From NCBI RefSeq assembly GCF_011769525.1, contig NZ_CP050440.1, positions 5,209,501 to 5,273,500 of the forward strand: a DNA stretch of 64,000 nucleotides, written 5' to 3'. The notes under the pieces are model-generated. The model was not told the origin of the DNA and ran no database searches. It was given only the letters and a program-made list of their open reading frames with translations. The stretch comes from Tolypothrix sp. PCC 7910. Lineage in GTDB: Bacteria > Cyanobacteriota > Cyanobacteriia > Cyanobacteriales > Nostocaceae. Each line of letters opens with the position of its first letter. The stretch's first letter is position 1. The translations under genes and the position numbers were made by a program. Positions 13,118-17,018 of this stretch are shown in pieces.

Positions 13118-13127
13118 TTTGTCATTT

Positions 13128-13193
13128 GTCATTGCGAACGGAACGAAGTGCAGTGAAGCAATCCTAAAATTGCTTCGCTGTGCTCGCAATGAC
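13128..13193. repeat. 66-bp dispersed inverted repeat
   Basis: Ends GTCATTGCGA and TCGCAATGAC are perfect inverted copies; inner arms GAAGCAAT and ATTGCTTC also pair, giving a long imperfect hairpin. It is preceded by a TTTGTCA heptamer directly after the stop of the TPR gene. It may act as a transcript end structure or be a small palindromic mobile element. Confidence 0.7.
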
Positions 13194-13276
13194 AGTTATT
13201 ATTCAACTCAATTGTGCTGGGTGCGATCGCCGATTTTGCCTTAAGCTAACTTATTGACCAGCCTTTGATACTCATT

Positions 13277-13528
13277 AATGAGGCTCAGAAGCTCGTGAAT
13301 GAGGCTCGGAAGCTCGTGAATGAAGCTCAGAAGTTCATTAATGAGGCTCAGAAGCTCGTGAATGAGGCTCAGAAGTTCGTGAATGAGGCTCAGAAGTTCG
13401 TGAATGAGGCTCAGAAGTTCGTGAATGAGGCTCAGAAGTTCGTGAATGAGGCTCAGAAGTTCGTGAATGAGGCTCAGAAGTTCGTGAATGAGGCTCAGAA
13501 GCTCGTGAATGAAGCTCGGAAGTTCATT
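13277..13528. repeat. 21-bp minisatellite, twelve units, each encoding a heptad
   Basis: Twelve consecutive 21-bp units; the consensus begins GAGGCTCAG and reads as NEAQKFV or NEAQKLV on the plus strand. The flanking units are the diverged ones (GCTCGG, ATTAAT), and six or so central units are near-identical. Because 21 is divisible by three, both this frame and a minus-strand frame (IHELLSL) stay open. A plus-strand frame spans 13265-13720 from a TTG codon, but it has no ribosome binding site and its end is not protein-like, so I call this a repeat and not a gene. Confidence 0.85.
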
Positions 13529-13943
13529 AATGAGCCTTTAATATTTGTTTACCTGCTTTTTAGGCTAGTACTTGGGTTATCCTACCTTGCGATCGCCCCA
13601 ATTCAGCCCACAGTAAATTCTAAACTAAAGAATCTGGCATCCTCTAGCATCAATCAGCACATCTTATATTCATCACGTCCGATAAATTTTGTCAATCAAT
13701 CGCCAGCTTTGTGCATCTAATTATCACTATGTCTTGTGATTTTACCCAAATTTGTAATATGCGATCGCCTGTAGTGAAAGAGATATTTTGAGCAGGATAT
13801 AAGTGCAATGTTTTTTTGATTGCAAAGATGAATAGCTTTGGTTTTTGTAGGAATAATTCCGCATTTTTTAGGTTGGCAATTACATAAATGCAAGGCAATA
13901 ATTACATGATTATAAATTCTTTGCATCAATCAAAGATGTAATC

Positions 13944-14600
13944 ATGAATAATTCTCATCCTCAACCAAATAACGACAAACTTAAATATAACGGTAAATAT
14001 CGAGTTGATTCGACACGGTTGCCAGCATGGAATTATGCGACTAATGGGGCATATTTTCTGACTATTTGCACGAAGGGTAAAGAATGCTTTTTTGGTGAGG
14101 TTGTGCAGGGGGAAATGCAGTTATCACAAGTTGGAGAGGTTGCTCGAAGGTTGTGGGGTGAGATTCCTAATCAGTTTTCTAATTTTGATATTGATGTGTT
14201 TTGCGTTATGCCTAATCATATTCACGGGATTCTTATACTTAATCAAACGCAAATGGAATCGGTGGATTCGGAAGAAGGCGCGATGAATTTGATGAATCTG
14301 GAAGAAGACGCGATGAATCTAGAAGAAGACGCGATGAATCGCGTCTCTACAAGAGGGGGGGTGACGGGGTTGTTTAATCCGATGTTGTCGAAAAATTCGG
14401 TTTCTAAAATTGTGCGGTGGTATAAGGGACGATGTACGTTTGAAATTAATCGAATTTATCAAGGTTTTGGATGGCAAGAACGGTTTTATGATGAAATAAT
14501 TCGCAATCAATTCGCTTTGGATAAAATTCGACAATATATTATCGATAACCCAATCAATTGGGAACGCGATCGCGAACAACAACCCCATCCCCCCTTGTAG
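13944..14600 (+). CDS. REP-associated tyrosine transposase (RAYT, IS200-like Y1 family)
   Basis: 218 residues. The N-terminus has the RAYT signature (YRVDSTRLPAWNYATNGAYF, then LTICTKGKECFFGEV). The HUH motif is PNHIHGI (His92, His94), and the probable catalytic Tyr is Tyr182 in RFYDEIIRN. These enzymes cut and join single-stranded DNA at REP palindromes and are usually single-copy, domesticated genes. Residues about 105-138 are an insertion of low complexity (EEDAMNL repeats) encoded by REP-unit DNA, located between the HUH core and the C-terminal part (VSKIVRWYKG). The stop codon lies inside an inverted copy of the same unit. The fold may tolerate the insert because it sits in a variable loop, but activity is uncertain. 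Confidence 0.9.
   Translation: MNNSHPQPNNDKLKYNGKYRVDSTRLPAWNYATNGAYFLTICTKGKECFFGEVVQGEMQLSQVGEVARRLWGEIPNQFSNFDIDVFCVMPNHIHGILILNQTQMESVDSEEGAMNLMNLEEDAMNLEEDAMNRVSTRGGVTGLFNPMLSKNSVSKIVRWYKGRCTFEINRIYQGFGWQERFYDEIIRNQFALDKIRQYIIDNPINWERDREQQPHPPL
14305..14353. repeat. REP unit inside the RAYT gene (left arm of a 49-bp inverted repeat)
   Basis: Contains one partial and one complete GACGCGATGAATCGCGTC palindrome separated by TCTAGAAGAA, ending CTCTACAAG. It is an exact reverse complement of 14594-14642. An additional degenerate GCGATGAAT unit lies just upstream (14278-14304). Confidence 0.93.
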
Positions 14601-14642
14601 AGACGCGATTCATCGCGTCTTCTTCTAGATTCATCGCGTCTT
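14594..14642. repeat. REP unit at the RAYT 3' end (right arm of a 49-bp inverted repeat)
   Basis: Exact reverse complement of 14305-14353. The TAG stop of the RAYT gene (14598-14600) and the TGA stop of the convergent cyclase gene (14631-14633) both fall inside it. Its own palindrome (14602-14619) could fold as a bidirectional hairpin between the two convergent genes. Confidence 0.93.
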
Positions 14643-17018
14643 GCTTGCAAATGAGTCATCGATTGGATTCTCATTACAATTGGGATATTGATTCTCCAAA
14701 GAAATGTCATTATATATTTGATCCAACATCGCTCGCACAGATGGCGGCAGGGCTGTAAAGTGGATGTAGAAACTACCCTCAGCCGTAGGTTTTTCTAACA
14801 CCTTGCCATAAAAATCTTCCCGTACTTCTTGAGGCAAATTCTCATTCAGCAGAATCAGCTTGAGATTTGTTAGCGGCGGTAATTTACCCTCATGACTTTC
14901 ACACTGAATCAACGCTTCCCGATGGGAAAGTTTAATAATTTGCGCTTCATACCAGCGATCGCCTACGTGTTTGCTTTCTAAGGTGACGTACTGGAGTAAA
15001 ATCGGCTCTGGTAGTTCGCGGAATTCTTCTTCTGATTTGGAGAGAAATAAATTATGTTCTCCCCTAATCCCGCTAATTTCATACAGATTAATGGGGTCTT
15101 TCACTCCTTTCATCTGTACTTGTTGCGTTCCTTCCACTTGCACGATATCTCGCACTTCCGCTAAAACATCCTCGGAGACGATAATTTGTCCGCCAACGCT
15201 ACAAGATTCTATGCGGTAGGCGAGGTTGATGTGATTCCCCACGACACCATATTTAGTCCGTTTTTCTGAGCCGATGTTACCAACGACAACCTCGCCTGTA
15301 TGGATACCAATCCCCATTTCGATTTCTGGGAAACCCCATGCTTGCATTTGTTGGTTGACGGGAATCATGGCTTGTTGCATAGCTACAGCACAAGCGATCG
15401 CTCTTTCTGTGTCGTTGGCTCTCACTGTCGGCGCACCGAAGAATGTGAGAATTCCATCCCCCATAAATTCATCAATAGTACCTTCGTAGCGGGTAATTAC
15501 TTCCGCCATATATTGCAGGTAAAAGTTGAGGATAGCGATGACTTGCTCTGGAGATATGCGTTCTGATGTCGCTGTAAAGCCACGCAAATCTGAGACTAGG
15601 ATGGTGATTTTCTGTCGCTTACCGCCTAACTCTAACCCTTGGGGACTTTCTAAGAGATTGCTAACAATCTCATCACTGAGGTAGCGTCCAAAGATTTTCC
15701 GAATCAGCGCATTTTTATTTTTCAGTTCGCCGTTGATTTTGGCGAGTGCTTGAGTGCGATCGCGTACTTTTTCTTCTAAAGTGGCAAACAATTCTTTTAG
15801 CTGTTTCGCCATGCTGGTGAAGGATTCAGCCAATTCGCTAATTTCATAGGATCCATCAACTGCTAGTTTTTGCTCCCAGTTTCCATCTGCTAGTCCTTTA
15901 GCAGCAGTATTCAAACGCTGAATCGGCTTGACAATCCACAGGGATGTTTGCAATCCCACCACCGTTGCAACGATCAGCGATAGCAGACACAAGACAACTG
16001 TAATGCGAGTGTTTTCATGAATGCGCTTCATGAACTCCGCTTCTGGTACAACTACCGCAATTAAAACATCTAACCCCCTGTTATCCTTTAATGGCGTAAC
16101 CTGAAGAAATTGCCGTTCTCCTTGAATTTCAAAGTCTAGTAGTTGACTGTTGTGAATCTTGCTAAAACTCCCAAACTTATGTTCTAAATGTTTGGCACTT
16201 TGTTGGATGAGATAATTTTGGCTCTCAGAAGCTTTAATTCGTTGCGTCTGATTAGTCCGATTGCGATAACTGGGATCGGGAGTAGATGTAGCCACTAGCA
16301 ATCCCGAACGTTCCATAATAAACGTCTGTCCAGATGCACCAATCTTCAGGCTTTGCAGAAATGTGTTCACCTCAGAAAAAATAAAATCGCTACCCAGAAC
16401 CCCCTTGAGTTTTCCTTGCTTGTCATAGATAGGTTGAGCTGCGGTAATTGCCAATCCCCCTGTACTAAAGTCGGGATAGATTGTACTCCAAATAGGTTTA
16501 CCCGCAGCTACAGCTTGCTTGTACCAAGGGCGTTGTCTGGCATCAAAATTAGGAAGAGACTGGATGCGCTTTGTGCGATCGCCCTGTACATTGGTTGCAA
16601 AATACTGGTTGTATCCAGTAGTGCGATCGCGTTCCATTACTTGCAAGTCACCATTGGCTAAACGTCTGGCTCCTAAATATTCACCTGTAACATTTCCGTA
16701 AAAATTGTAGGTAATCACCGGAAAGGTACGGATTTGCTGCCAAAAATACTTCTGCTTATATTGGATATTGTGTTTATCTAACTCCCCTAACTCAATGGCA
16801 TTGGCATTCAGCCGATTAATCAAATGGGGTGTTTCTATATACACTAGTAGCTTATCCTTAACCCTGCCAGTCACCTCATCCCGGAGTTTGGTAGCGACTT
16901 CATTAACTGCCCTTTGCCCATTGCGAAAGGAGAAATATCCAGTTAGTCCGACAGCAGTCATCACCTGGAGTAGTGTAGATACAACAAAAATGACACGTAA
17001 CGGCATTTTTCTATACAT
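14631..17018 (-). CDS. Receptor-type class III adenylate/guanylate cyclase (dCACHE-HAMP-cyclase-PilZ-like)
   Basis: 795 residues. Transmembrane helices at about 8-30 and 334-359 enclose an extracytoplasmic dCACHE-like sensor (DARQRPWYKQAVAAGKPIWS, GVLGSDFIF). A HAMP segment follows (about 360-412), then a short coiled linker and the cyclase domain (about 470-650). Metal-binding Asp residues are seen in VSDLRGFTA and EFMGDGILTFFGAP, and the purine-binding Lys region is EKRTKYGVVGNHINLAYRIE. The site where many cyclases have Asp/Thr reads Gly in YGVVG, so the base preference is not certain, though cAMP is usual in cyanobacteria. The last 100 residues resemble a PilZ-like domain. The final residues SKTR come from REP repeat DNA, so the C-terminus has been altered by the repeat. 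Confidence 0.87.
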   Translation of the reverse strand: MYRKMPLRVIFVVSTLLQVMTAVGLTGYFSFRNGQRAVNEVATKLRDEVTGRVKDKLLVYIETPHLINRLNANAIELGELDKHNIQYKQKYFWQQIRTFPVITYNFYGNVTGEYLGARRLANGDLQVMERDRTTGYNQYFATNVQGDRTKRIQSLPNFDARQRPWYKQAVAAGKPIWSTIYPDFSTGGLAITAAQPIYDKQGKLKGVLGSDFIFSEVNTFLQSLKIGASGQTFIMERSGLLVATSTPDPSYRNRTNQTQRIKASESQNYLIQQSAKHLEHKFGSFSKIHNSQLLDFEIQGERQFLQVTPLKDNRGLDVLIAVVVPEAEFMKRIHENTRITVVLCLLSLIVATVVGLQTSLWIVKPIQRLNTAAKGLADGNWEQKLAVDGSYEISELAESFTSMAKQLKELFATLEEKVRDRTQALAKINGELKNKNALIRKIFGRYLSDEIVSNLLESPQGLELGGKRQKITILVSDLRGFTATSERISPEQVIAILNFYLQYMAEVITRYEGTIDEFMGDGILTFFGAPTVRANDTERAIACAVAMQQAMIPVNQQMQAWGFPEIEMGIGIHTGEVVVGNIGSEKRTKYGVVGNHINLAYRIESCSVGGQIIVSEDVLAEVRDIVQVEGTQQVQMKGVKDPINLYEISGIRGEHNLFLSKSEEEFRELPEPILLQYVTLESKHVGDRWYEAQIIKLSHREALIQCESHEGKLPPLTNLKLILLNENLPQEVREDFYGKVLEKPTAEGSFYIHFTALPPSVRAMLDQIYNDISLENQYPNCNENPIDDSFASKTR

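Follow-up and report, generated by a model that had tools for sequence, protein, structure and literature searches.

A GTAG-tagged REP in the reading frame of a cyanobacterial RAYT gene, its inverted copy at the stop codon and their conservation among relatives

RAYTs (TnpA-REP) bind and cut single-stranded GTAG REP hairpins, the cut falling at CT in E. coli, which raises the question of how enzyme and REP remain matched in the long term. The question takes a particular form in Tolypothrix sp. PCC 7910, where a RAYT gene holds a REP in its own reading frame and a second, inverted copy at its end. Is such a REP a recent accident, a tolerated passenger or a maintained component of the gene? The window, the whole 64,000-nt stretch of DNA analysed, contains the following features at this locus.

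13944..14600, plus strand: RAYT (TnpA-REP) gene, an ORF of 218 aa; HuH motif NHIHG at 14214-14228, catalytic Tyr198 codon at 14535-14537
14256..14384, plus strand: codons of the linker (residues 105-147), which joins the HuH strand to the half with the catalytic Tyr; AlphaFold2 pLDDT <50
14260..14326, plus strand: repeated tail units beside the inner REP, encoding EEGAMN / EEDAMNL; repeat family D2, copies at 14260, 14290 and 14311
14327..14350, minus strand: inner REP, its GTAG foot reading CTAC at 14347-14350; same linker and orientation in 25/25 close orthologues
14597..14620, plus strand: outer REP, its GTAG foot giving the RAYT TAG stop; REP in 22/25 orthologues, foot as stop in 18/25
14621..14642, plus strand: outer REP tail, containing the TGA stop of the cyclase gene
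14631..17018, minus strand: dCache-HAMP-adenylate/guanylate cyclase gene (Pfam), convergent with the RAYT gene

An inverted REP pair in and after a RAYT gene

Letter-by-letter comparison established that the 49 nt at 14305-14353 are the exact reverse complement of those at 14594-14642, as the initial annotation had it. The arms grow to 54 nt at 98% complementarity (14305-14358 and 14589-14642, spacing 230 nt). With up to 3 mismatches allowed, the 49-mer occurs at two sites only in the 8.76-Mb genome, namely the two window copies, and the pair is therefore not a product of chance. Within each copy the REP proper covers about 24 nt (14327-14350 and 14597-14620) and the remainder of the 49 nt is tail sequence. 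In the inner copy the REP itself encodes DAMNRVST and the tail sequence EEDAMNL-like units. As also proposed, the outer copy supplies both convergent stop codons, as read from the sequence and its ORFs: the RAYT stop TAG (14598-14600) is the TAG within the GTAG foot of the outer REP (14597-14600), and the cyclase stop TGA (14631-14633, minus strand) sits in the REP tail.

The repeat is a REP, as proposed, and GTAG followed by AGACGCGATNNATCGCGTCT has many copies in this Nostocaceae genome. At one mismatch or fewer, the pattern gave 137 forward and 145 reverse matches, a count in which one element may appear twice, the pattern being near-symmetric. Among 30 REP readings that were fetched (some of them two readings of one element), 2 lay within an open frame of at least 150 codons. 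Their consensus has CTT preceding GTAG, which would be compatible with TnpA-REP cutting at CT.

The identification of the gene as a RAYT also stood. Pfam PF01797 (Y1_Tnp) matches the protein as a whole (30.2 bits, cut-off 23); taken singly, no stretch passes the E-value threshold. The best PDB match of the AlphaFold2 model is 4er8 (E 5.4e-06), a complex of a REP-associated tyrosine transposase with a REP hairpin. The NCBIfam model NF047646 (REP_Tyr_transpos) gave 51.2 bits, under its curated cut-off of 80. The AlphaFold2 model has a mean pLDDT of 73.3 and a confident core, with pLDDT <50 at residues 1-24, 105-147 and 216-218; the middle one of these zones follows a strand (92-99) and precedes a helix (153-171). 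Residues 105-147, which hold the insert, are presumably a flexible linker.

As for its class, the NH[IFV]H motif of subclass 2.4 is present as NHIH (residues 91-94), and the WQ motif, the His and the Tyr are invariant in 49 aligned rows. The YIxNNP motif reads YIIDNP, one letter off, and YIINNP in close relatives. The in-frame REP (14327-14350) falls in the variable beta3-alphaC region that separates HuH from Y, and the flanking GTAG REP that goes with subclass 2.4 (long canonical or double foot) is present as the outer REP (14597-14620). The locus is best explained as a group 4 / subclass 2.4 RAYT (TnpA-REP) with its cognate GTAG REPs as the normal inherited layout, and we regard this explanation as probable.

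On the cyclase side, the 3′ end of the cyclase gene occurs without this RAYT in four genomes (G001, G003, G006, G007). In G003 similarity ends at window position 14664, just past the outer REP, and in G004, where the RAYT is present, similarity on the other side begins at 13735. A bidirectional terminator was tried as a candidate for this region and received no support: one terminator-like site only was found, on the minus strand at 14605-14586, and shuffles average 1.0.

We also observed further repeats upstream of the RAYT gene. Between it and a TPR gene, about a dozen 21-nt units of the AATGAGGCTCAGAAGTTCGTG type stand head to tail (13265-13560) and have one frame without stops (NEAQKFV); an array of other 21-nt units adjoins the cyclase gene of G001. 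Another inverted repeat, with arms TGTCATTGCGAACGGAACGAAG / CTTCGCTGTGCTCGCAATGACA 24 nt apart, occupies 13127-13194. A lone GTAG follows GCGATCGCC at 13771-13774, and some relatives have their upstream REP after similar letters; it is perhaps the remnant of a lost upstream REP.

Conservation of the inner REP among close orthologues

Orthologues were searched in 192 family genomes, an even sample of the larger family. A match at E 1e-40 or better was obtained in 43 genomes, 25 of which hold a close orthologue (identity 68-100%; for some the match is split in two). Three loci (L081, L083, L084) duplicate L064, L071 and L070, respectively, and were removed before counting, and REP calls tolerated 3 mismatches or fewer within the 18-nt core. 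The inner REP was found in minus orientation and in the same linker in all 25 orthologues, the outer REP in plus orientation in 22, and a further plus-oriented REP upstream in 18; the seven that lack the latter include all 4 holders of the window's genus. In 18 of the 25, the RAYT frame ends on the TAG of the outer foot. As for the others, L056, L057 and L061 end at an earlier stop, L059, L066 and L067 are without outer REP and L068 is frameshifted. Tail-unit number varies between species, L040 for instance being shorter by 21 nt in this region.

The median dN/dS was 0.231, and 0 of 231 pairs reached 1 or more (22 orthologues; L039, L068 and L070 excluded): the RAYT coding core is under purifying selection. 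These results bear on the initial view of a gene invaded, and perhaps inactivated, by its own REP. The REP is ancestral in the lineage rather than newly arrived, and inactivation is unlikely given purifying selection and an insert placed in a linker of very low model confidence (residues 105-147). Some relatives are indeed broken, L039 by an in-frame TAG, L068 and L070 by frameshifts. However, with the inner REP in every close orthologue, an open frame in the window and dN/dS values of this order, a recent inactivating self-insertion in the window's genome is very improbable. Nor did the comparison reveal an orthologue conserving the peptide without the REP: the nearest relative lacking the inner REP, L069 (about 50% identity), lacks the peptide as well. 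In L069, eight double-footed REPs are found at steps of about 120 nt after the RAYT gene (2100-2957 of that locus).

Silent positions were also informative. At fourfold sites, identity was 98.3% in the eight REP codons, versus 73.9% in the N part and 80.3% in the C part of the gene (23 orthologues; L068 and L070 excluded). Conservation of this kind suggests that the inner sequence is preserved in its REP form, either through use or through overwriting. The excess is difficult to accommodate if REPs are passively tolerated, that is, if the transposase acts near its site of production, REPs land in or near the RAYT gene, survive only in the flexible linker without function, and persist through common descent or ordinary gene conversion. 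The very low model confidence of the linker agrees with such tolerance, as does the argument of Quentin et al. 2018 (PMC6006769) that subclass 2.4 has its variable region at the periphery. So does L043, where a decayed inner REP (by eye) lies in an open frame, indicating that the inner REP is not indispensable.

The tails of the inner and outer copies were compared as well. Of 22 genomes, only L031 and L038 have tail letters at least 95% alike between the two copies, with partial agreement (75%) in L039, and shuffles reach the observed mean in 387 of 5000 trials. General concerted evolution of the two tails is thus not supported in these 22 genomes, and outside the REP core the copies do not in general change in concert. 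Lineage-specific tail letters that the inner and outer copies share, one set in L031 and another in L038, nevertheless suggest inner-outer copying after the divergence of these two species. An inverted 3′ half, flipped between the two REPs, was considered from the split matches of G109 and G122 and not seen there, both parts being on the same strand.

An inverted pair may also act as a structure. In this rival explanation, the two copies would base-pair with each other, in the transcript or in ssDNA, and so reduce RAYT expression, or the hairpins would be bound by the RAYT protein itself. The segment 14240-14670 is predicted to fold at -186.7 kcal/mol, versus -113.7 for 100 shuffles (z -12.6), with a long stem joining both copies; single REPs fold at about -13. 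The two REPs are inverted relative to each other in 22 of 25 orthologues, which points the same way. However, any inverted repeat of this length folds so, and the outer REP is absent in 3 of 25 orthologues. The long transcript stem is a possible route to self-control, and an autoregulatory RNA or DNA structure as the explanation of the layout appears unlikely.

REP types in other RAYT genes and REP numbers in genomes

The survey was extended to 190 RAYT loci from family and order searches. We dropped 20 (no HuH frame or no W motif) and one duplicate protein, leaving 169, of which 23 belong to the window lineage; this set replaced a stricter first pass that kept 155. The linker, taken from the HuH to the W motif, shares a stretch scoring at least 16 with its own flanks in 88 of 169 loci, versus 10 for the N-terminal part and 7 for the C-terminal part, a control about half as long in total (19.1 kb, against 40.7 and 40.9 kb). 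Without the 23 window-lineage members, all of which score, the linker figure is 65 of 146. Hairpins with a GTAG or GTGG foot were detected in 84 of the 169 linkers, in 3 N-terminal parts and in 1 C-terminal part. These linker hairpins have many sequences and are single-footed, in either orientation, or double-footed. The 85 of 169 RAYTs without a detected footed hairpin in the linker lend some weight to passive tolerance, though the detector misses some perfect palindromes (L072, L095, L096).

Footed hairpins occur in both linker and flanks at 49 loci outside the window lineage. In 35 of these 49 the inner hairpin is at least 90% like a flanking one of its own locus, whereas shuffled pairs averaged 2.65 such matches and never exceeded 9 in 1000 shuffles; the inner REP thus mostly follows the REP type of its own locus. 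REP types differ between lineages, and the inner one mostly agrees with the flank beside it. This argues against passive tolerance and, together with the silent-site result, leaves it as a possible but somewhat unlikely account. A tree count of changes (29, at least 12 of them forced by starred branches) was set aside as evidence, because the detector misses palindromes and the tree has few columns.

At two of the loci, parts of the RAYT gene that adjoin or include the inner REP are repeated. In L144, a 216-column stretch of the RAYT 3′ half recurs nearby. In L097 a 109-nt HuH-linker-REP stretch recurs after the gene; the REP found there stands within this repeat, a case of RAYT sequence being copied together with a REP.

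The window's genome has three RAYT genes, and apart from these and the outer REP itself no copies of the 3′ half were found elsewhere in it. The second RAYT (L033) carries an inner GTAGGGGCAAGGCACTGCCTTGCCC, a type with 36 forward and 37 reverse matches in the genome. In the third (L032), the linker has palindrome halves about 36 nt apart, and similar halves stand 35 nt apart elsewhere in the locus. REP-like palindromes with halves GGGCACGGCA / TGCCGTGCCC about 35 nt apart were seen in L032, L041, L042 and L044, both in the linker, where they are more or less decayed, and elsewhere in the locus. These split palindromes are perhaps a long-loop REP type.

REP number follows RAYT presence in part. 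The median number of pattern hits was 135 in the 25 genomes with a close orthologue (range 6-271) versus 3 in the 167 without (range 0-639; Mann-Whitney p 3e-11, uncorrected for kinship), and within genus g6 alone, 10 holders versus 18 non-holders gave p 0.01. However, 36 of the 167 genomes without close orthologue have at least 40 hits (up to 639), and two of the four non-holders of genus g1 have 161 and 163, versus 111 to 271 in its holders; RAYT presence therefore does not fully explain REP number. For the GACGTTGC type, any hit was found in 94 of 192 genomes. RAYTs bearing an inner GACGTTGC REP are found in seven of them (G014, G025, G052, G109, G112, G133, G191), with 6 to 79 forward hits, the inner copy of G052 being slightly decayed. 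G119 has 173 forward hits of this type and no RAYT match in a search with the window protein at E 1e-40.

A probable maintained REP and comparison with known systems

The layout is conserved, inner and flanking REPs match within a locus across many RAYT lineages, and the coding sequence is under purifying selection. The best reading of these observations, and one that we hold with some confidence, is that the REP is a maintained component of these RAYT genes. The usual layout comprises a minus-oriented REP in the reading frame and a plus-oriented one after the gene, the foot of the latter often forming the RAYT stop codon; often there is also a REP upstream, which was not found in the window's genus. 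The RAYT may act on single-stranded REP hairpins near its own gene, where copies would preferentially arrive, and the linker would be the only region of the gene that tolerates a REP. After its arrival, the inner REP would stay REP-like and in step with the flanking REPs. It could be kept by use, as a cis site serving as donor copy or as a transcript or ssDNA hairpin for self-control; alternatively, it could be kept by repeated overwriting by other copies.

A stronger proposal makes the inner REP a functional part of the RAYT coding sequence. It would be a protected master copy of the enzyme's own substrate, enzyme and REP type would change together, new genomic REP types would start from or be locked by the inner copy, and the inverted outer copy would complete a self-limiting hairpin. 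We consider this proposal doubtful. Under the reading of a maintained component, RAYT genes with a REP inside the frame offer natural enzyme-substrate pairs, type by type.

Palindromes inserted in frame in proteins are also known from the Rickettsia palindromic elements. The latter are CGTC-tagged, occur in many host genes and have no known link to RAYTs, in contrast to the window gene, with which they share the in-frame position.

REPs around rayt genes (REPtrons, BIMEs) were described by Nunvar et al. 2010 (PMC2817692), with four cases in which the rayt 3′ end joins a BIME. In those systems, as presented there, the REP comes after the gene, whereas the window gene also has one inside its frame. 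Di Nocera et al. 2013 (PMC3733652) reported that GTAG feet give TAG stops to flanking ORFs, that REPs occur inside ORFs and that cyanobacterial families exist. In the portion of their text concerned, RAYT genes are not named as hosts of intragenic REPs; the window RAYT is such a host.

The idea of a REP inside a RAYT frame is already published: according to the corresponding sections of Quentin et al. 2018 (PMC6006769), REPs are inserted in frame in subclass 2.4 tnpA-REP genes, generally between HuH and Y, in a peripheral region. This subclass corresponds to RAYT group 4 of Bertels. A measurement of the match of inner and flanking REPs type by type was not found in the parts of the literature covered by the search. 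The window gene has in common with subclass 2.4, as described in those sections, the HuH and Y motifs, the surrounding GTAG REPs (long or double-foot), the in-frame REP between HuH and Y and the occurrence in Cyanobacteria. We see no difference in kind between them; what is added here is the conservation across an orthologue lineage and the matching of inner and flanking REPs, measured type by type.
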